From a bacterium (GTDB taxonomy: Archaea > Nanoarchaeota > Nanoarchaeia > Woesearchaeales > UBA10216): 31,564 nucleotides of DNA. Each line of letters starts with the position of its first letter. Position 1 is the stretch's first letter. The stretch lies in NCBI GenBank assembly GCA_024206195.1, contig JAAGZO010000396.1, positions 1 to 31,564 of the forward strand, in the 5' to 3' direction. The notes beneath the pieces were generated by a model, which worked only from the letters and a program-made list of their open reading frames with translations, was not told the origin of the DNA and ran no database searches. The translations under genes were made by a program, and so were the position numbers. Below are positions 1,053 through 28,630 of the stretch, in pieces.

Positions 1053-1157
1053 ATGGAACGGGAGGAGGACTTATATCTCAACCTGGATGACGATCTTGAA
1101 AACGACGAGATCTCACCAGAAGAAGAAGGCTTCATGAGAGGCTTTCTCGAAGATTAG
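1053..1157 (+). CDS. 34-residue highly acidic small protein
   Basis: A 34-residue frame beginning MEREEDLYLNLDDD and ending GFMRGFLED. About 16 of 34 residues are Asp or Glu. I do not recognise the family. It has no signal peptide or membrane segment; the C-terminal FMRGFLED could form a short amphipathic helix. Support comes from context: TATA box at 992-1001, near-perfect Shine-Dalgarno site at 1036-1044, and a stop codon that overlaps the convergent methylthiotransferase gene by 4 bases. Small acidic proteins can bind basic partners such as RNA polymerase, histones or ribosomal proteins, but no function can be assigned. Confidence 0.7.
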   Translation: MEREEDLYLNLDDDLENDEISPEEEGFMRGFLED

Positions 1158-2395
1158 TTGTCTTTCAGATAATTCGGCGTGACGTCTCTAACCTCCGCCC
1201 ACACCATGGATCCTGGTTCTATATTCTTTTTAATAACAATCTGCTTGTAAAACTCATTTCTTCCTGTAACACTTCCCTTTCTTATCTTTTCGTCTATTAA
1301 GAACTCACCTTTCCAGCCAATCCATCCCTTATTTTTTTCAAGGGCTATGCTTTTGAAAAGCTTTGCCAGTTGTCTGCTTCTTTTTTTCTTATATCTGCCG
1401 TTCATATCCTTCATTTTAGAAGCAGCTGTGCCTGGCCTTGGGAAGAACCTTGAGATATTAAGCAAATCAGGCTTTGTTTCGTTAATTAGCTTCAAGGAAT
1501 CCTCGAACTGCTTTTCTGTTTCAGATGGAAAACCGCAGATAATGTCTGTTGAGATTGTTATTCTTGGAATGGCTTTTCTTAGTTTTTTTATTATTTTTTT
1601 ATAATCATCAACAGTGTATCTTCTGTTCATCAGCTTTAGAATCTCGTTGTTGCCTGACTGAACAGGAATATGCATGAACTTGAACACCTTCTTGTGTTTT
1701 AACACCTTAATGAGTCTGTCAAGAATTGGCAATACATTGTTAGGGTTCATCATACCCAATCTAACAAAAAACTCTCCTTCAATTTTTACTATTTTTTCAA
1801 GGAGCTCTGCAAGGTTTGTCTTAGTGTCTTTTCCGTAAGCAGCACAATCCTGGCTTGTTATCCAGATCTCCTTGCATCCATTTCGCACTGCTTTTTTTAT
1901 TTCACTGAGAATCTTTTCTTCAGGATAAGAATGAAGCTCTTTTTTTGCAAGCTTAACAATGCAATAGCTGCAGTTTCCTGAACAGCCTTCTGAGATCTGC
2001 ACTATGTCTATTTTTGGATTTGTTCTTTTCTTTGGCAGACCAAGTTTCACTTCTTTTTTATTTCCTGTAAAACTCTGCCCCTTAATTGCTCTGGTTATAT
2101 CTTTCACATGGTAGGGTCCAACAAGGATTGCGTTTGGTGCAATTTTTTTCAATGCATCTTTCTGTACCTCTGCCATGCAGCCTGCAATCACAAGTTTCTT
2201 TTTTGCAAGCTTTTTCACTCTGTTAAGCACCTTGCTTTCTGTTCTCCCTTTTACAGTGCAGGTGTTCAGTATTATGATGTCTGCATTTTTTTCATTATCA
2301 ACTATTGTGTGCTTTGCTTTTGTAAGAAGACCTGCCATTATCTCAGAATTATTCGTGTTTGCACTGCAGCCGAAGGTTTCAATAAAGATTTTCAT
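1154..2395 (-). CDS. MtaB/CDKAL1-type tRNA (t6A37) methylthiotransferase, archaeal type
   Basis: 413 residues, full length for the MiaB/MtaB radical SAM family. The N-terminal UPF0004 domain has the three auxiliary-cluster cysteines C10 (ETFGCSANTNNSE), C46 (NTCTVKG) and C73 (AGCM). The radical SAM core has CSGNCSYC (C138, C142, C145), and the C-terminal stretch of about 60 residues is TRAM-like. Wording such as ETFGCSAN-SEIMAGLL and EIWITSQDCAAYGKD is typical of the archaeal/eukaryotic e-MtaB branch, which converts t6A37 to ms2t6A37 in ANN-reading tRNAs. It is the last gene of the MEP operon; its ATG overlaps the ispH stop by 4 bases (ATGA, 2392-2395). It shares a need for 4Fe-4S clusters with IspG and IspH. 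Being archaeal in type, it anchors the MEP genes in an archaeal chromosome. Confidence 0.9.
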   Translation of the reverse strand: MKIFIETFGCSANTNNSEIMAGLLTKAKHTIVDNEKNADIIILNTCTVKGRTESKVLNRVKKLAKKKLVIAGCMAEVQKDALKKIAPNAILVGPYHVKDITRAIKGQSFTGNKKEVKLGLPKKRTNPKIDIVQISEGCSGNCSYCIVKLAKKELHSYPEEKILSEIKKAVRNGCKEIWITSQDCAAYGKDTKTNLAELLEKIVKIEGEFFVRLGMMNPNNVLPILDRLIKVLKHKKVFKFMHIPVQSGNNEILKLMNRRYTVDDYKKIIKKLRKAIPRITISTDIICGFPSETEKQFEDSLKLINETKPDLLNISRFFPRPGTAASKMKDMNGRYKKKRSRQLAKLFKSIALEKNKGWIGWKGEFLIDEKIRKGSVTGRNEFYKQIVIKKNIEPGSMVWAEVRDVTPNYLKDN

Positions 2396-3219
2396 GGTAT
2401 TGATTTAAGCTTTTTTGCAACGTCTTTTATTACCCAGTCTGGTGTTGATGCGCCTGCTGTTACTGCAACAGATTCAATTCCAAAGAAATTGTCTTCATTA
2501 ATATCATCTGCAGATTCCACATGGAAGACTTTACAGAATGGCCTGCACACATCAGCAAGCTTCTGGGTGTTGTTGCTGTTTTTGCCGCCAACGACAACCA
2601 CTACTTCGTTTTTCTTTGCAATCTCAACAGCAGATTCCTGATTTTCCTTTGTTGCATTGCAGATTGTATCGCACACCTCAATTTCAGAAGCCTCTTTTTT
2701 GATATGGTCTGTTATTTCTTCCATTTCCTCTGGCTTGTGCGTTGTTTGCGATAAGAAGCACACTTTCTTGTTCTTTAGGTCTAGGGACATGCATTCTTCA
2801 AGGTTCTTTACAACAAATGCCTCCTTTTTTGCGTGTCCCATAATTCCGATCACTTCAGGATGGTTTTTGTCTCCAAGCAAGACTATTGTATATCCCTTTG
2901 CTGAGAAATCCTTGACAATACTATGCGCTCTTTTAACATAAGGGCATGTTGCGTCGATTATATTGATTCCTTTTTTCTTTATTTCGTTTTCTGTTTCAGG
3001 CGGAATGCCATGAGCTCTTATCACAACAGAGCCGTCTGTCACATCTTTCAGGTTATCTATAGGCTTAACACCTATTGACTCAAGCTTTTCTACAATCTGA
3101 GGATTATGAACTATTGGGCCAAGCGTGCAAACAGCGCTGCCATTTGATTTCATAGCCATGTCAACTGCTCTTTTCACACCAAAACAGAATCCAAGGTTTT
3201 TTGCAATTGATACTTTCAT
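2392..3219 (-). CDS. ispH: 4-hydroxy-3-methylbut-2-enyl diphosphate reductase (IspH/LytB)
   Basis: Last step of the MEP pathway: reductive dehydroxylation of HMBPP to a mixture of IPP and DMAPP by a 4Fe-4S enzyme using ferredoxin or flavodoxin electrons. The 275-residue protein keeps all key features: cluster cysteines C12 (LGFCFGVKRAV), C92 (DATCPYV) and C187 (DTICNAT), the proton-relay glutamate E122 in HPEVIG, the substrate histidines in VHNP, RAHG and NHPE, and the C-terminal TAGASTPDWVI. The register with E. coli IspH (C12, C96, C197, E126) is very close. The ATG overlaps the ispE stop (ATGA, 3216-3219). Because IspH makes both isomers, no IPP isomerase is strictly needed. Confidence 0.97.
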   Translation of the reverse strand: MKVSIAKNLGFCFGVKRAVDMAMKSNGSAVCTLGPIVHNPQIVEKLESIGVKPIDNLKDVTDGSVVIRAHGIPPETENEIKKKGINIIDATCPYVKRAHSIVKDFSAKGYTIVLLGDKNHPEVIGIMGHAKKEAFVVKNLEECMSLDLKNKKVCFLSQTTHKPEEMEEITDHIKKEASEIEVCDTICNATKENQESAVEIAKKNEVVVVVGGKNSNNTQKLADVCRPFCKVFHVESADDINEDNFFGIESVAVTAGASTPDWVIKDVAKKLKSIP

Positions 3220-4034
3220 AGGTTCACCGTGTCAAATGTTTTGTAATCTTTTAGCGCTTCAATGAGCTTTTCATGATCGCCCTCTACTATGCAGAATACA
3301 GCAGAGCCTGAGCCACTCATCACTGCGTTAAGCGCTCCATTCTGCATCATTATATCTTTTATCTTTTGTATTTCAGGATGTTGTTTAATCATCATTTCCT
3401 CGAAGTCATTGTGAAGATTTGCTGCAATAGCTTTCACATTTTCTTCTTCTAATGCCTTTATCATTTCATCTGTTGTTCTTTTTTCTGAACTTTGTTTAAA
3501 TGATTCATACGCGTTCTTTGTTGGAATGCTTATCTTAGGAACAGCAACAACGATTTTTACTCTTGGAGCATTAAGCTTTCTTATTTTATCGCCGCGTTCT
3601 GTTGCCAGACCAGTTCCTCCTGCAACACAAAAGCAGCAGTCACATCCAATCTCTGATGCAATCTTAATCATTTCATCTTTCTCAATGTTAAGGTTCCACA
3701 TTGTGTTGAGGCCTGTCAATACAGCAGCAGCATCTGCGCTACCACCTCCAAGGCCTGCTCCAACTGGAATTCTTTTTTCTATATCTATCTCAACGTTCTG
3801 ATCAATATTGTACTTTTCCTTGATTAGCATTGCTGCTTTTAGGGCAATATTCTTTTCAGCAGGTATCTCTTTGCAATTAACACTCATCTTATTTGCTTCT
3901 CTGATAAAAATATCATCAAAAACATTCAGTTGCTGCTTTATTGACTCAATATTATGATAACCGTCTTCTCGCTTTCCAAGTATGTTGAATGTAAGATTGA
4001 TCTTTGCAGGAGCACCAATTATTATCTCACTCAT
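3216..4034 (-). CDS. ispE: 4-diphosphocytidyl-2-C-methyl-D-erythritol kinase (IspE)
   Basis: GHMP-family kinase of 272 residues that phosphorylates CDP-ME at the 2-hydroxyl with ATP. It opens with APAKINLTFNI, containing the catalytic lysine K11, and has GYHNIE and the ATP loop PVGAGLGGGSADAAAVL (residues 90-106). The catalytic aspartate is D132 in EIGCDCCFC, where bacterial enzymes usually have GADVPFF; the cysteine-rich substitution is odd but the Asp is kept. The C-terminal GHMP motif MSGSGSAVF is present. The start at 4034 lies inside ispF, giving an 8-base overlap (4027-4034). Confidence 0.94.
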   Translation of the reverse strand: MSEIIIGAPAKINLTFNILGKREDGYHNIESIKQQLNVFDDIFIREANKMSVNCKEIPAEKNIALKAAMLIKEKYNIDQNVEIDIEKRIPVGAGLGGGSADAAAVLTGLNTMWNLNIEKDEMIKIASEIGCDCCFCVAGGTGLATERGDKIRKLNAPRVKIVVAVPKISIPTKNAYESFKQSSEKRTTDEMIKALEEENVKAIAANLHNDFEEMMIKQHPEIQKIKDIMMQNGALNAVMSGSGSAVFCIVEGDHEKLIEALKDYKTFDTVNL

Positions 4035-4500
4035 TGCTTAGCCCCACAATTGCAATTGCCTGAATGCCTTCTCCTCTGCCAAATGAGGTAAGGTCCTCTC
4101 CTGAAGTGAATGTGATGCCGATTGCATCATTTTCTAAATTCAGTATTTTAGAAAGGCTGTTCTTCATTGCGTCATGGAATGGTTCAAGCTTTGGTTTTCC
4201 TGCTTCAACCATGATTCCAATGTTGTTTATCTTGTATCCTTTTTTTGTGATCATATCAAGTGCAACCTTTATGTATTCTCTGCTGTCTGTTATTCCATTC
4301 TTGCACATATCATCTGAATATGTTCCAAGCGATCTTTCACCAACAGCCTGACTTAAAGCATTGAATAAAGCGTGAAGTATCACATCTGCATCAGAGTTTC
4401 CTTTTAATCCATCGCAGCCTTCAATTTCTGTTCCAGCTAGAATTAACTTTTTTCCTTTTTCGAATCTATGTGAATCTGTTCCAATACCAACTCTATGCAT
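4027..4500 (-). CDS. ispF: 2-C-methyl-D-erythritol 2,4-cyclodiphosphate synthase (IspF), divergent
   Basis: 157 residues using the ATG at 4500, which gives the family N-terminus MHRVGIGTDSHRF; a start 10 codons upstream would add an unrelated extension. It cyclises CDP-ME 2-phosphate to MEcPP with release of CMP. The metal ligands are in the E. coli register: D9 and H11 (TDSHRF) and H43 (SDADVILHALFNAL). The FGRGEG motif near the C-terminus is present. Two regions depart from bacterial enzymes: the DIGKLFPDTD loop is shortened to LGTYSDD, and the KATTTEKLGFTG segment reads TFTSGEDLTSFG. A GGTGAT Shine-Dalgarno site lies just before the start, and the gene overlaps ispD by 8 bases. Identity is secure from motifs and operon context; catalytic competence is less certain. 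Confidence 0.88.
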   Translation of the reverse strand: MHRVGIGTDSHRFEKGKKLILAGTEIEGCDGLKGNSDADVILHALFNALSQAVGERSLGTYSDDMCKNGITDSREYIKVALDMITKKGYKINNIGIMVEAGKPKLEPFHDAMKNSLSKILNLENDAIGITFTSGEDLTSFGRGEGIQAIAIVGLSNE

Positions 4501-5167
4501 TTTTATCACCAAGTATTTTTTCAGCAACAATCAGGTCATCAGGGGTTGTTATCTTGATGTTATCATAGCTCCCCTTTGTAATCCTTACCTTTTTTCCAAT
4601 TCTTTCTACAAGCGAGGCCTCGTCTGTTCCTATGAAGTTTTCTTCCTTTGCTTTTTCATGAGCCTCTTTGATTATCTCTGATTTGAATGTTTGCGGTGTC
4701 TGCATTAACCATAAGCTTGAACGATCAAGTGTTTCATCAACAAAATTATCAGTTACTTTCTTGATTGTGTCTTTTGCAGGAACAGCAACAACAGATGCTC
4801 CAAATTCAATTGCGTCATTTATTGAATTAGTGATGCATTCCTGGCTTACAAACGGCCTTGCACCGTCATGAACAAGGATTATGTCAGAGTCTGCTGAAAA
4901 AACGCCATTATAGCTTGACTGTTGCCTTGTTTCACCACCCAATATTATCTTCTTAACTTTGTCATGCTTTTTTGCTTCTTCTTCAAAGAGCTCTTTGTAT
5001 TGCTCGCTTATCACAACAATTATTTCATTAACTAACTCGTTGTCCTGGAATGCCTTAAAGGTGTGAAACATTGTTGTTTCCTTTCCAAGATTAAGGAACA
5101 TCTTGCTCTTTCCAGCACCCATTCTTTTTCCTTCGCCAGCAGCAACTATGACTGCAGTAACATTCAT
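4493..5167 (-). CDS. ispD: 2-C-methyl-D-erythritol 4-phosphate cytidylyltransferase (IspD)
   Basis: Couples MEP with CTP to give CDP-ME. The 224-residue protein has every block of the family: AAGEGKRMG (residues 9-17) with the CTP-binding lysine K22, GGETRQQSSYNG (77-88), VHDGARPFV (99-107), the AVPAKDTIK stretch, QTPQTF (156-161), TDEASLVE (181-188) and NIKITTPDDL (203-212). Length is normal. The ATG at 5167 overlaps the dxr stop by 4 bases. The HDGARP and TDEAS blocks separate it from the related sugar nucleotidyltransferase at 83-922. Confidence 0.96.
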   Translation of the reverse strand: MNVTAVIVAAGEGKRMGAGKSKMFLNLGKETTMFHTFKAFQDNELVNEIIVVISEQYKELFEEEAKKHDKVKKIILGGETRQQSSYNGVFSADSDIILVHDGARPFVSQECITNSINDAIEFGASVVAVPAKDTIKKVTDNFVDETLDRSSLWLMQTPQTFKSEIIKEAHEKAKEENFIGTDEASLVERIGKKVRITKGSYDNIKITTPDDLIVAEKILGDKNA

Positions 5168-6285
5168 TTTTCTGCCTCTTTTCTTGCCCAGGCATCTGCC
5201 TCGACAACATCATTCAGTTCAGGATTCTTAACCAGCTTATGAGCATCCATGACAGTTTTGATTGTTGCAGGGATGTCAAGATAGCTTATTTTTTTAGCCA
5301 GGAAATTCTTTACAGCTATTTCATTTGCAGCGTTCAAAACTGCAGGCATTGTGCCTCCGATTTTTCCTGCTTCATAAGCATAGTATATGCATGGAAATCT
5401 TTCCATGTCTGTTTTTTCAAATGTAAGGCTTTTTTCTGTTGGATCCAGGCGAGGGAACTCGCTAGGGGATCTATGAGGATATGTGAGTGCGAACTGAATC
5501 GGCACTCGCATATCCTGCATACCAAGATGTGCGATTATGCTGCTGTCAAAAAACTCAACCATAGAATGAACTATGCTTTGCGGATGAACAACTGTATCTA
5601 TTTTTTCATAATCCATGCCAAACAAATGATGGGCTTCAATCACTTCAAAGCCCTTGTTCATTAGTGTTGAGGAATCAATTGTTATTTTGCTGCCCATATT
5701 CCATGTTGGATGATTTAGAGCTTGCTCAACTGTTACGTTTTGCAGTTCTTCTTTTGTTTTGCTGCGGAAAGGACCGCCAGACGCAGTAAGAATTATTCTC
5801 TTTGCTTCCTTTGTGTTTTCCCCTCTCAGGCACTGGAAGATTGCAGAGTGCTCGCTGTCAACAGGGAGTATCTCTACATTATTCTTTTCTGCTGCATTCA
5901 TAACAATGTCACCAGCAGTTACAAGAGTTTCCTTGTTTGCAAGGCAGATTCGCTTTCCTGCTTTAATTGCCTCAAGTGTTGGTATTAATCCAACAGAACC
6001 AACAACAGATGTTACAACATAGTCTGCACTGTCCATTGAAGCTACCTTATTTAGCCCTTCAATGCCTGACAAGACACTTATTCCAGTTTTCTTCTCAAGC
6101 TCTTCTGCCTTTTGCTTGTCCATTACAGCAACAAGCTCTGGCTTGAATTCAGCTATCTGTTTTTCAAGCAGCTCTGTGTTGCTGTTTGCTGTTAGGCCTG
6201 ACACTTTGAATCCTAATCTTTTGATTACATCAAGTGTTTGTGTTCCTACTGATCCTGTAGACCCAAGTATTGATATGCTTTTCAT
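5164..6285 (-). CDS. dxr: 1-deoxy-D-xylulose 5-phosphate reductoisomerase (DXR/IspC)
   Basis: NADPH-dependent rearrangement and reduction of DXP to MEP, the first committed step and the fosmidomycin target. The ATG at 6285 gives MKSISILGSTGSVG, the family N-terminus with the dinucleotide-binding GSTGSVG at 8-14, and overlaps the dxs stop as ATGA. A longer frame beginning 16 codons earlier lies inside dxs and is rejected. The 373-residue protein carries ANKETLV (116-122), the metal-binding PVDSEHSA (141-148, D143 and E145), TASGGPF, HPTWNMG, IDSSTLMNKGFEVIEA with the third metal carboxylate, VHPQSIVHS (233-241) and MRVPIQFALTYP (259-270). All catalytic elements appear intact. A long inverted repeat lies in the coding sequence at 5476-5516. 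Confidence 0.97.
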   Translation of the reverse strand: MKSISILGSTGSVGTQTLDVIKRLGFKVSGLTANSNTELLEKQIAEFKPELVAVMDKQKAEELEKKTGISVLSGIEGLNKVASMDSADYVVTSVVGSVGLIPTLEAIKAGKRICLANKETLVTAGDIVMNAAEKNNVEILPVDSEHSAIFQCLRGENTKEAKRIILTASGGPFRSKTKEELQNVTVEQALNHPTWNMGSKITIDSSTLMNKGFEVIEAHHLFGMDYEKIDTVVHPQSIVHSMVEFFDSSIIAHLGMQDMRVPIQFALTYPHRSPSEFPRLDPTEKSLTFEKTDMERFPCIYYAYEAGKIGGTMPAVLNAANEIAVKNFLAKKISYLDIPATIKTVMDAHKLVKNPELNDVVEADAWARKEAEK

Positions 6286-8030
6286 TTTAACTCCATGCAG
6301 TTTTTGATTATATTCTCTTCTGTTAGTCCACATTGTTCTCTTTGTTCGCTGATTGAACCATGATCAACAAATGAGTCTGGCAATGCCATCACTTTTATAT
6401 CTGCTTTGATGCCTTTTGCAGATAACTCTTCAAGTATTGCGCTTCCAAAGCCCCCTTTTTTGCTGTTTTCCTCAATGATAACTGCTTTGCCTGATTGTTT
6501 TATCTTTTCAATAATATCATTGTCAATTGGTTTTGCAAATCTTGCGTTAATCATTGCAGCGCTTATTCCTTTCTCTTTGAGTTGTTTTGCTGCGTTTAAT
6601 GCAGGATACACCATTGAGCCAATAGCAACTATTGCGATATCATTTCCTTCAGCAAGGGCTTCTGATTTCCCAAGAGGAATGCTTGCTAAGCTTGAATCCA
6701 TATCAACACCAACAACAGAACCTCTTGGATATCTAATTGCAATTGGTCCGTTGTGTTCAACTGCAGTCTTAAGCATGTGCTGCAGTTCATTTTCATCCTT
6801 TGGAGCCATAACAATCATGTTAGGCATTGTTCTTAAGTATGATAAATCAAAAGTTCCATGGTGCGTAGGACCGTCTTCTCCTACAAGGCCTGCCCTGTCA
6901 AGACAGAATACAATAGGAAGGTTTTGCAGGCAGACATCATGAATCATCTGGTCATAGCCTCTCTGAAGAAATGTTGAGTAAATTGCAACAACAGGTTTTA
7001 GATTGCAGCTTGCAAGGCCTGCTGCAAATGTAACTGCATGCTGCTCTGCAATTGCAACATCAAAGAATCTTGAGGGAAACCTTTTTCCGAATTCACTTAA
7101 ACCAGTTCCGTCAGGCATTGCAGCTGTTATTCCGATTATTTTTTCATTTTCATCTGCAAGCTTTACAATGGTATCAGAGAAAACAGAGGTGTAGGTTTTC
7201 TTGCTCTTGCCATTCTTTTTTCCTGTTTCTATATCAAAAGAGCTTATTCCGTGGAATGCCTCCTTGTTATTCTCAGCATGAATGTATCCCTTTCCTTTTT
7301 TTGTTTTGACATGGATTAATGTAGGACCTTTTGCATCCTTTGTTTCATTGAGAACTGTGATTAATTCTTTTATGTTGTGTCCATCATAAGGCCCATAGTA
7401 AGAAAATCCAAGCTGGTTGAATATTGTTTTAATATTCCTTTTTTCGTGCGCTGTTTCAGACAGCTTGTTGAGATATTTTGAGAGTGCACCTATATTTGAT
7501 GAAATAGACATTTTGTTGTCATTTAAGATAACTGTCAGGTCTGTTCTAAGGTGTCCTGCATGGTTAATTGCTTCAAATGCCATTCCTCCTGTAAGTGCGC
7601 CATCACCAATAACTGCAACAACCCTTCTGTTTTCTTTTTTGAGGTCCCTTGCCTGCGCTATTCCTAAAGCAGCAGATATTGAAGTGCTTGAATGGCCTGT
7701 GTTAAATGAATCATGTTTGCTTTCATCTCTTTTTGGGAATCCTGCTATGCCATCTTTTTTTCTAATAGTTTCAAACCTGTTTTTTCTACCTGTTAAAATC
7801 TTGTGAGCATATGCCTGGTGTCCTACATCCCACACTATCCTGTCGTTTTCTTCAAGAGAGTAATGCAGAGCAAGTGTTAATTCTACAACACCTAAGCTTG
7901 GAGCAATATGGCCTCCGTTCTTAGAAATAACATCAATAATCAGTTCTCTGATTTCTTTTGCTGTAGCTGGAAGATCTTCTGGAGATATCTTTTTCAGGTC
8001 TTCTGGCGAGTCAATGTTTTCAAGGCTCAT
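6282..8030 (-). CDS. dxs: 1-deoxy-D-xylulose 5-phosphate synthase (DXS)
   Basis: TPP enzyme that condenses pyruvate with glyceraldehyde 3-phosphate, decarboxylating to DXP; it is usually the flux-controlling step. The protein has 582 residues, slightly short compared with about 620 in E. coli. Motifs in order: H41 in GGHIAPSLG, VWDVGHQAYAHKI, the TPP/Mg motif from GDG at 142-144 to NDN at 170-172, YGPYDGH (212-218), HVKTKKGKGY, catalytic glutamate E329 in AEQHAVTFAAG, and DRAGLVGEDGPTHHG (378-392). These are DXS signatures and not those of transketolase or pyruvate dehydrogenase E1. The three transketolase-like domains are complete. The ATG overlaps the ispG stop by 4 bases. Confidence 0.97.
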   Translation of the reverse strand: MSLENIDSPEDLKKISPEDLPATAKEIRELIIDVISKNGGHIAPSLGVVELTLALHYSLEENDRIVWDVGHQAYAHKILTGRKNRFETIRKKDGIAGFPKRDESKHDSFNTGHSSTSISAALGIAQARDLKKENRRVVAVIGDGALTGGMAFEAINHAGHLRTDLTVILNDNKMSISSNIGALSKYLNKLSETAHEKRNIKTIFNQLGFSYYGPYDGHNIKELITVLNETKDAKGPTLIHVKTKKGKGYIHAENNKEAFHGISSFDIETGKKNGKSKKTYTSVFSDTIVKLADENEKIIGITAAMPDGTGLSEFGKRFPSRFFDVAIAEQHAVTFAAGLASCNLKPVVAIYSTFLQRGYDQMIHDVCLQNLPIVFCLDRAGLVGEDGPTHHGTFDLSYLRTMPNMIVMAPKDENELQHMLKTAVEHNGPIAIRYPRGSVVGVDMDSSLASIPLGKSEALAEGNDIAIVAIGSMVYPALNAAKQLKEKGISAAMINARFAKPIDNDIIEKIKQSGKAVIIEENSKKGGFGSAILEELSAKGIKADIKVMALPDSFVDHGSISEQREQCGLTEENIIKNCMELK

Positions 8031-9070
8031 AATTTCTCTGCCTCCTTGAGGAGTTCTTCAACAGCATTCTCTTCTGTTACTTTTCTTAGAATTTCTCCTT
8101 TTTTGAAAAGCAAAGCATCTTTTTCACCAAAGGCAAGTCCAAGGTCTGCTTTCTTTGCTTCTCCAGGACCATTGACAGCGCAGCCCATTACAGCAATCTT
8201 AACTGGCTTTTTCAGGTTTGCAGTTGCTTTGTCAATCTTTTTTGCCATCTCTGCAAGGTTTACTTTTGTTCTGCCGCATGTTGGGCACGAGATTATCTCC
8301 CGGTTTTTTGTTCTTAGTCCCATTGCCTGCAGAATCTCATATGCAACCCTTACTTCATTAACAGGATTGTCTGTTAAAGAGACCCTTATTGTGTCACCAA
8401 TGCCCATGTTGAGTATTGATGCAATGCCTGCAGACGACTTGATTGTCCCTGAATGGCTAGGTCCAGACTCGGTAATGCCTATGTGAAGAGGATAGTCTGA
8501 TTTTTCTGAGAAAAGTTTGCATGCTTCAATGGTCATTGGAACATCAGATGCTTTCAGAGACACAATAAGATTATTGAAGCCCATTGATTCAAAGAATTTG
8601 ATTTGCTTTAGTGCAGACTCAACCATTGCTTTTGCTGTGAATCCATATTTTTCATGGAATTCCTTTTCAAGAGAACCTGAATTAACACCAATCCTTATTG
8701 GGATATTGTTTTCTTTGGCAGCTGCTATAATTTCTTTTAGTTTTTCTTCACTGCCAATATTGCCTGGGTTAATCCTAAGCTTATCTGCATATTTTGCAGA
8801 CTCTACTGCGATCTTGTGATTGAAATGAATGTCAGCAACAACTGGGATGTTTGCTTGTTTCTTTATTTCCTTAAAAGCATCTATAGAATCCATGTCAGGA
8901 ACAGCAACACGCACTATTTCGCAGCCCGCTTCTTCAAGCTCCTTTATCTGAGCTACAGTAGCCTTGACATCCTTAGTATCTGTCTTGCACATTGACTGGA
9001 CAACAATAGGGTTGTTGTCGCCAATTATTATGCTACCTACCTGTATCCCCCTCGTTTTTCTACGCTCCAT
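8027..9070 (-). CDS. ispG: 4-hydroxy-3-methylbut-2-en-1-yl diphosphate synthase (IspG/GcpE)
   Basis: 4Fe-4S enzyme that opens the MEcPP ring and reduces it to HMBPP. 347 residues, the compact bacterial form without the plant/Chlamydia insert. The TIM-barrel part shows VQSMCKTDT, VRVAVPD, VADIHFNH, LRINPGN, IRIGVNSGSLE and HIGITESGPSHSGTIKSS. The cluster-binding part has C262 and C265 (SCPTCGRT), C297 and E304 (GCAVNGPGE), equivalent to C270, C273, C305 and E312 of E. coli. It is the first gene of the operon. A minus-strand TATA box at 9098-9107 would start transcription about 6 bases before the ATG at 9070, so the operon mRNA appears nearly leaderless. Electron donor genes are not in the window. 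Confidence 0.97.
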   Translation of the reverse strand: MERRKTRGIQVGSIIIGDNNPIVVQSMCKTDTKDVKATVAQIKELEEAGCEIVRVAVPDMDSIDAFKEIKKQANIPVVADIHFNHKIAVESAKYADKLRINPGNIGSEEKLKEIIAAAKENNIPIRIGVNSGSLEKEFHEKYGFTAKAMVESALKQIKFFESMGFNNLIVSLKASDVPMTIEACKLFSEKSDYPLHIGITESGPSHSGTIKSSAGIASILNMGIGDTIRVSLTDNPVNEVRVAYEILQAMGLRTKNREIISCPTCGRTKVNLAEMAKKIDKATANLKKPVKIAVMGCAVNGPGEAKKADLGLAFGEKDALLFKKGEILRKVTEENAVEELLKEAEKL

Positions 9071-9097: not shown

Positions 9098-9107
9098 ATT
9101 TATAAAC
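9098..9107 (-). promoter_or_regulatory. Archaeal promoter of the MEP operon
   Basis: Minus-strand GTTTATAAAT with an A-rich BRE-like sequence (CAACAAA) just upstream, centred about 32 bases before the ispG ATG. It lies in a 98-base divergent region shared with the promoter of the gene at 9169. Every downstream junction overlaps, so this appears to be the main promoter for all eight genes. No bacterial -35/-10 pair is evident. Confidence 0.65.
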
Positions 9108-13683: not shown

Positions 13684-13712
13684 AAAGTGCCGGAGAGGGG
13701 ATTTGAGCCCCC

Positions 13713-13747
13713 GACAATCGTACACTGTCAGATAGTCTGACAACGTT
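13713..13747 (-). other. 35-base variable-loop region of the CAT tRNA, likely a second intron
   Basis: A class I tRNA should have about 5 bases here. The insert folds into a tight stem, TTGTCAGA-CTA-TCTGACAG (13725-13743), flanked by CGT/ACG pairing. A second intron near position 45/46 is the simplest reading; a genuine long variable arm on a CAT tRNA would be unprecedented to my knowledge. Exact splice sites cannot be fixed by eye. Confidence 0.5.
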
Positions 13748-13753
13748 CTACGT

Positions 13754-13803
13754 GCCTCCTGATTAAGCTTTAATCATTGGATGAATCCTCATCGCTCAAA
13801 TCA
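13754..13803 (-). other. Probable 50-nt intron in the CAT tRNA (position 37/38)
   Basis: Splicing after CTCATA and before A-CGTAG restores a 7-base loop. Around the junction CTC pairs with GAG, a 3-base bulge GCA precedes the exon stem, and intron TGATT pairs with AATCA; this is a relaxed bulge-helix-bulge, not a perfect one. Inside the intron GATGA-GGAT-TCATC and TGATTAA-AGC-TTAATCA can form further hairpins. Confidence 0.65.
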
Positions 13804-13868
13804 TATGAGCGTAGCGCTCTAACCAGGCTGAGCTACTCCGGCATAAAGTTAAGAGAAAAATTATTGTT

Positions 13869-27955: not shown

Positions 27956-28630
27956 CTATGCTTTCTTAACTACTAGAAGAACATCTGATACATTTTTCAG
28001 GTCAAAGTCTGCTCCTGATTTCCTTATTTTCTTCACTGTGCCGTATCTTGCAAATGCTGTTTTCATTCCTACCTTCTTTGCTCCTGCAATATCTCTTTCA
28101 GGCCAGTCACCAACCATCAAGCATTCCTCTGGTTTAACCTTAAGCATTCTTATCGCTTTCTTGAACGGTTCTGCAGAAGGCTTTGTTTTCTTAGTGTCCT
28201 CAAAACATACCACAACATCAAAGAAGTCTGCGATATTCATCTCAACAAGGCGTATCCATGCATTAAGGCGAGGAGCATCCGAGACAATTGCAATCTTGTA
28301 TCCGCGCTGCTTGAGTTTAATCAATGTTGGAATAACCTTTGAGTATGGCTCAAGGAGTCCTGTTTGGACTTTTCTATAAGCGACAATGCCTGCTGACAAT
28401 ATTCTATAATCTACCTTGTTGTTTATTTTTGTCAGGAATTTCTGGAATATCTGTTGGTGCTCAATGCCAAACTCATCATAGAGCTCTGACATAATTTTTC
28501 TTGCTTTTTCCCTCTTAAGAGGAAGACCTGCAGAAATCATTGCACTGATTGCAGCATTGACACAAGTCTTCTTAATTTTCATGAAGTCAATCAATGTGTT
28601 GTCAAGATCAAATATTACAGCCTTAATCAT
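27956..28630 (-). CDS. HAD-superfamily hydrolase
   Basis: 224 residues. All four HAD motifs are present: FDLDNTLI (D8 and D10), IVSDAPR, K in TKKTKPSAEPF, and MVGDWPERDI. The cap is helical (subfamily I). Small phosphate-ester substrate unknown; phosphoglycolate phosphatase-like or nucleotidase activity are both possible. The minus-strand TATA (GTTTTATAAAC near 28651-28663) is 27 bases before the ATG, implying a leaderless mRNA. Confidence 0.93.
   Translation of the reverse strand: MIKAVIFDLDNTLIDFMKIKKTCVNAAISAMISAGLPLKREKARKIMSELYDEFGIEHQQIFQKFLTKINNKVDYRILSAGIVAYRKVQTGLLEPYSKVIPTLIKLKQRGYKIAIVSDAPRLNAWIRLVEMNIADFFDVVVCFEDTKKTKPSAEPFKKAIRMLKVKPEECLMVGDWPERDIAGAKKVGMKTAFARYGTVKKIRKSGADFDLKNVSDVLLVVKKA

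Follow-up and report, generated by a model that had tools for sequence, protein, structure and literature searches.

In a clade of 52 Woesearchaeota genomes, genes of the methylerythritol phosphate (MEP) pathway have been described as widespread and as lying together, close to UbiA and, in part of the genomes, to fatty-acid genes (available portion of PMC8204110). According to the accessible part of PMC8421398, subgroups F and J of the Woesearchaeota are the only ones with MEP genes, ispD/F is mostly fused in subgroup J, dxr and ispG are nearest to Firmicutes, and the geranylgeranylglyceryl phosphate (GGGP) and digeranylgeranylglyceryl phosphate (DGGGP) synthases are absent. Excerpts of other papers report MEP genes in further DPANN archaea (PMC10936187, PMC12892359), call the pathway almost absent in archaea (PMC11052028) or state that MEP genes were not found in operons (PMC13001223). 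We found no paper devoted to an MEP operon in our literature search. Here we describe a cluster of seven MEP genes on contig JAAGZO010000396.1 (assembly GCA_024206195.1), whose 31,564 nucleotides are the whole stretch of DNA analysed, hereafter the window. An earlier sequence-only reading of the window took such genes to be rare in archaea, contrary to the reports from Woesearchaeota, as far as those sources could be consulted. Since the MEP route is already reported in related archaea, the novelty of the window lies in its very tight, unfused cluster.

Our preferred reading, to which we give a probability of about 70%, is that the seven relatives of MEP enzymes and an adjoining methylthiotransferase gene likely form one operon. 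With it, a DPANN archaeon that is likely a member of the Woesearchaeota would make isopentenyl diphosphate (IPP) and dimethylallyl diphosphate (DMAPP) from pyruvate and glyceraldehyde 3-phosphate, mainly for cis-polyprenyl sugar carriers and not for classical ether lipids via GGGP synthase.

The MEP gene cluster and its archaeal setting

The sequence-only reading had placed ispG, dxs, dxr, ispD, ispF, ispE and ispH, in this order, at 2392-9070 on the minus strand. This was confirmed: each protein exceeds at least one curated NCBIfam cut-off, Pfam matches are concordant, and the enzyme set of the pathway is complete (7/7 families). The features, from the upstream side, are as follows.

9099..9106, no strand assigned: the palindrome TTTATAAA, 29-36 bases upstream of the ispG start, a possible archaeal TATA box
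8027..9070, minus strand: ispG (gcpE), 347 aa, first gene of the likely operon; above cut-off for NF001540 (489.1 bits, cut-off 345) and TIGR00612; aligned to the solved structure 3noy
6282..8030, minus strand: dxs, 582 aa; TIGR00204 (805.4 bits, cut-off 465.95); 4-base overlap with ispG
5164..6285 from its likely start (open reading frame to 6333), minus strand: dxr; TIGR00243 (504.7 bits, cut-off 315.7); 4-base overlap with dxs
4493..5167, minus strand: ispD, 224 aa, separate from ispF; TIGR00453 (242.1 bits, cut-off 181.3); 4-base overlap with dxr
4027..4500 from its likely start (open reading frame to 4530), minus strand: ispF; TIGR00151 (156.4 bits, cut-off 116.45); 8-base overlap with ispD
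3216..4034, minus strand: ispE, 272 aa; TIGR00154 (241.2 bits, cut-off 138.7); 8-base overlap with ispF
2392..3219, minus strand: ispH (lytB), 275 aa; TIGR00216 (296.7 bits, cut-off 187.85); 4-base overlap with ispE
1154..2395, minus strand: MiaB-like-B tRNA methylthiotransferase gene, 413 aa; NCBIfam TIGR01578 (450.9 bits, cut-off 314.7); 4-base overlap with ispH

The start codons of dxr and ispF were set by alignment, in the case of dxr to relatives and solved structures, which makes 6285 and 4500 the likely starts instead of 6333 and 4530. With these starts, the junctions from ispG to the methylthiotransferase gene overlap by 4, 4, 4, 8, 8, 4 and 4 bases. Judged from this layout, the eight genes are likely one transcript, and the overlaps may couple the translation of successive genes. 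The methylthiotransferase gene is likely the last gene of that transcript; we claim no functional link to the pathway. Transcription could start from an archaeal-type promoter of which TTTATAAA is a possible, putative element. The palindrome occurs at 7 sites in the window against 1.70 expected (maximum of 5 in 100 shuffles), and two of the other sites lie 24-31 bases before SRP54 and 23-30 bases before a HAD gene at 28630.

Alignments to solved structures bear out the motifs cited earlier for IspG, IspH, DXS and DXR. IspG keeps CPTC and the cysteine of GCAVNGPGEA, and IspH keeps the cysteines of GFCFGV, DATCPYV and ICNAT; GDG and AEQH with Glu329 are retained in DXS, and PVDSEHSA in DXR. We take these residues to have the catalytic and cluster-binding roles assigned to them in MEP enzymes. 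IspF has TSGE where its best solved match has TNEK, and all 22 other aligned archaeal IspF proteins carry TSGE, TSGD or TTGE at this motif. The seven enzymes are predicted to be active and to yield IPP and DMAPP, with pyruvate and glyceraldehyde 3-phosphate as the starting compounds. As a separate observation, the window DXS lacks a 34-column stretch after residue 202 that is present in most aligned archaeal DXS proteins.

The surroundings had been called archaeal on both sides, and this holds for most of the markers named: SRP54, the thermosome and class I LysRS are encoded in the window, and a tRNA match is compatible with an intron. A histone, also named, was not seen in the 31 of 91 window open reading frames (at least 70 aa) scanned against Pfam. 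The tRNA match (Rfam; 13688-13842, minus strand) spans 155 bases and has no ARAGORN counterpart. The host is likely a DPANN archaeon of the Woesearchaeota group. GC content is 0.375-0.405 in the operon genes and 0.362-0.429 in the other genes measured; at third codon positions it is low in dxs, ispE and ispF (0.295-0.321) and within the neighbours' range in the remaining operon genes.

MEP loci and enzyme trees in archaea and bacteria

To place the cluster we used as search centre the genome G001, reached via a DXR alignment, which carries the locus L001 and belongs to a Nanoarchaeota archaeon. Among 371 genomes sampled from its phylum, dxr was found in 27, with 26 above the cut-off, and the sequence around all 27 loci was compared. 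All seven MEP genes are present in 11 loci, three to six in 12, and dxr alone in 4; the figure of 11 is a lower bound, as many loci end at contig ends. The commonest order in complete archaeal loci is dxs-ispG-dxr-ispDF-ispE-ispH. The order seen in the window, which was looked for in related genomes, is present and repeated exactly in one of the 27 fetched loci, L128. Since seven-gene loci recur (11/27) and L128 has the same order, a chance assembly of the gene set is excluded. IspD and IspF are fused in 21 of the 23 archaeal IspD proteins examined (the count includes the window), the unfused ones being those of the window and L128. Three loci encode IspE and IspH in a single open reading frame of 540-544 aa (L122 6058-7692, L131 5588-7219, L133 1553-3175), a fusion of which our literature search found no report.

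L128, from genome G230, resembles the window in its seven genes, their order, the separate ispD and ispF, and an adjacent thermosome gene. The IspG proteins of the two are sisters (support 100/97), whereas their IspH proteins fall in different tree groups, and the thermosome gene lies directly downstream of the cluster in L128, while the window has it on the opposite side at a distance of about 13 kb. The DXS of L128 is nearly identical to P0245, a protein whose source name is Candidatus Woesearchaeota archaeon.

Archaeal-type ribosomal-protein genes accompany many of the loci, with an S15-cluster gene in 13 of 27, an L10-cluster gene in 9 and an L1-cluster gene in 9, as named from one annotated representative of each cluster. 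In L112, L114, L118, L120, L121, L125, L126, L127 and L135 the MEP cluster adjoins L1- and L10-cluster genes, a site unlike that in the window. In L111, L113 and L137, dxr is the only MEP gene within archaeal sequences of 10.9, 14.4 and 17.9 kb, respectively. L001 encodes a 220-aa ferredoxin-like (4Fe-4S) protein between ispG and dxr (1120-1782), which could be an electron donor to IspG and IspH.

For bacteria we compared the 79 dxr loci among the matches listed in a contig scan (80 with one archaeal locus), taking flanks of up to 10 kb per side; 50 of the 79 loci are 20 kb or longer. The bacterial genes, e.g. those of Clostridia, belong to the same seven families as those in the window; dxr stands alone in 45 loci, and the other 34 contain two MEP genes, mostly dxr and ispG. 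Within these flanks no locus had more than two (0/79) with the window proteins as queries, a search that divergent ispD, ispE and ispF could escape.

Trees were built for IspG, DXS, DXR, IspH and SRP54. Three protein homologue searches each gave the best 120 of about 8000 scored candidates. Archaeal proteins covering less than 70% of the window protein were left out, and the 27 loci contributed 26 rows for DXR, 15 for IspG, 17 for IspH and 14 for DXS. For DXR, the tree uses 37 of the 79 bacterial loci, to which 18 of 119 database homologues were added; the corresponding fractions of available sequences, the second again for database homologues, are 26/27 and 23/119 for DXS and 28/28 and 24/119 for IspH, and the IspG tree has 28/28. 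Bacterial rows for IspG, IspH and DXS come from the genomes of a hand-picked 30 of the 79 loci.

DXR and DXS belong to clades that are mostly archaeal and are surrounded by bacterial sequences, which supports the earlier view of bacterial-type enzymes in an archaeal setting. The DXR clade (97 in the quick tree) holds 31 archaeal rows including the window, 9 unnamed and 2 bacterial rows, and its neighbours include Clostridia (82); the DXR of L113 is the sole archaeal row outside it. The DXS clade (97 in the quick tree) holds 22 archaeal rows, 9 unnamed rows and 1 of Patescibacteria. Approximately unbiased (AU) tests allow a single archaeal origin for DXR (p-AU 0.248) and DXS (p-AU 0.576), and likewise for IspG, whose archaeal rows do not form one clade in the tree (p-AU 0.29 for a single clade). 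Archaeal IspH splits into three groups. The first has 12 rows and the second 8 with 5 unnamed; the third consists of the window and a single unnamed protein, nested in a set of 16 rows (95/94) from Clostridia, Desulfobacterales and Syntrophales. The window IspH thus stands apart from two other archaeal groups, and the AU tests also admit fewer origins: p is 0.067 with all archaeal rows held together and 0.37 with the window joined to the second group, values at which neither grouping is firmly rejected. The MEP genes would be of bacterial origin, dxr having Clostridia close to it, and would have resided in archaea for a long time since.

The window SRP54 is at most 72% identical to the SRP54 proteins found in the phylum of G001, the one phylum searched. 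The SRP54 tree covers 19 of the 27 dxr genomes, G230 not among them, and the careful version omits two long rows. One clade of 24 rows takes in 17 of the 19 MEP rows; G127 lies elsewhere. The window sits in an 11-row set (99/96) together with 7 genomes without either marker (dxr or HMG-CoA reductase) and 3 with HMG-CoA reductase. The tree places the host outside the main MEP clade, and the AU test admits a position beside that clade as well (p-AU 0.486, not rejected).

Predicted use of the product

The sequence-only reading had the pathway supply ether-lipid precursors, and a supply through GGGP synthase is unsupported in the relatives: a search with PF01884 gave no convincing GGGP synthase in any of the 27 dxr genomes. 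Matches to this profile occur in 25 of the 371 genomes, 11 above the cut-off and most over part of the profile, and the long ones (G352, G146, G297) are all in genomes without dxr. HMG-CoA reductase is found in 21 of the 371. With dxr in 27 and both in 1 (Fisher p 1.0), we make no claim of mutual exclusion between the MEP and mevalonate routes. The one genome with both is G090, where the HMG-CoA reductase match lies in a 1036-aa open reading frame.

Cis-prenyltransferases make polyprenyl carriers, and their family PF01255 is found in 26 of the 27 dxr genomes, so one likely consumer is present almost throughout. Across the phylum, 199 of 318 genomes have PF01255. If the 318 are taken as the first 318 of the 371 scanned for dxr, the family is present in 21 of the 22 genomes that carry dxr and in 178 of the 296 that lack it (p 4e-4). 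L128's genome, G230, encodes PF01255 as well as the polyprenyl synthetase family PF00348, and gives no match to UbiA. Ten genomes (G025, G090, G115, G127, G134, G198, G204, G206, G280, G340) each have two PF01255 matches above the cut-off, at 218-271 and 86-146 bits. An association of a second cis-prenyltransferase copy with a missing PF00348 was considered and dropped, as such copies occur in 5 of 14 genomes without that family and 5 of 13 with it, no pattern by eye.

Several observations weigh against carriers as the main product. PF01255 is common without dxr (the 178 of 296 above), and genome size or completeness could lie behind the association. PF00348, which would make the primer for the cis-prenyltransferase, was found in 13 of the 27 dxr genomes and missed in 14. 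UbiA is present in 10 of the 27, and therefore other prenyl products exist. G001, itself a dxr genome, has a PF01884 match of 25.1 bits, just above the cut-off and over positions 117-214 only, and the dxr genomes G204, G206, G247 and G314 have weaker matches below it; we take all five as putative other TIM barrels. All evidence on the steps after IPP comes from the genomes of relatives and not from the window's own. On balance, the product is more likely to serve sugar-carrier lipids than a classical archaeal membrane. By analogy with these relatives, most of the IPP and DMAPP would end up in cis-polyprenyl sugar carriers; about half of the genomes would also make trans-prenyl products, and GGGP synthase would not channel the units into classical ether lipids.

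Origin of the cluster and comparison with known systems

We regard it as very unlikely that mis-assembly joined the archaeal to the bacterial-type genes. The window DXR comes from a single contig among the matches listed, but the same genes stand in archaeal settings in separate assemblies, beside the S15-, L10- and L1-cluster genes counted above; L128 combines the same order with a thermosome gene, and in base composition the operon differs little from the genes around it. The sequence-only reading had a ready cluster arrive from one bacterium to supply ether-lipid precursors, instead of or beside a mevalonate route of the host. This seems improbable to us, although the AU tests allow one archaeal origin for IspG, DXS and DXR, UbiA and polyprenyl synthetase occur in a number of dxr genomes, and the donor could be unsampled, e.g. 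among Patescibacteria, of which a row sits in the DXR clade and another in the DXS clade. The arrival of a ready-made cluster is not borne out by the bacterial loci, none of which exceeds two MEP genes within the limits given above, or by IspH with its three archaeal groups, although the AU values of 0.067 and 0.37 leave room for fewer. The lack of a convincing GGGP synthase in dxr genomes also speaks against this account, and the co-occurrence of HMG-CoA reductase and dxr in one genome equals the expectation under independence. Of that reading, the bacterial kind of the enzymes and the archaeal setting stand; the rarity in archaea and, in the relatives, the ether-lipid supply are unsupported, and the ready-made cluster is conjectural.

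A more serious contender, though still doubtful, is that the operon is old in the archaeal group and that most lineages have since lost it, with the window keeping an older, unfused layout, as opposed to a late transfer between archaea. In favour of this account, the window DXR is an early branch of the archaeal clade, close to its base, and the window SRP54 groups apart from the main MEP clade. Against it, dxr in just 27 of 371 genomes requires many losses, and the SRP54 placement is not firm, given the test result and genome coverage reported above. We also offer a tentative and rather unlikely reading: the single seven-gene operon may be an archaeal invention, in which genes of bacterial origin were brought together within DPANN archaea, came to overlap and, in some lineages, were fused (ispD-ispF, ispE-ispH). 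The cluster would then have moved to, or survived in, lineages outside the main clade, and would serve polyprenyl sugar carriers in archaea unable to build classical ether lipids themselves.

None of the other archaeal loci fetched has the bacterial MEP route in so compact a form as the window operon, which is small enough for expression as one piece. What is new is the unfused ispD and ispF, an order repeated only in L128 among those loci, and, less firmly in view of the tests, the placements of IspH and of the host. The Woesearchaeota MEP clusters, as described in the available parts of PMC8204110 and PMC8421398, share with the window the pathway, the side-by-side position of the genes and archaeal hosts, and their dxr and ispG are reported to be closest to Firmicutes. 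The fusion of ispD and ispF, common in these clusters but not defining, is absent from the window, where the two genes are separate; they are fused in most of subgroup J, according to the same partial sources, and in 21 of 23 cases here. The window further differs from those clusters in that ispG precedes dxs, the genes form an uninterrupted run with every junction overlapping, and IspH stands apart from the other archaeal groups.

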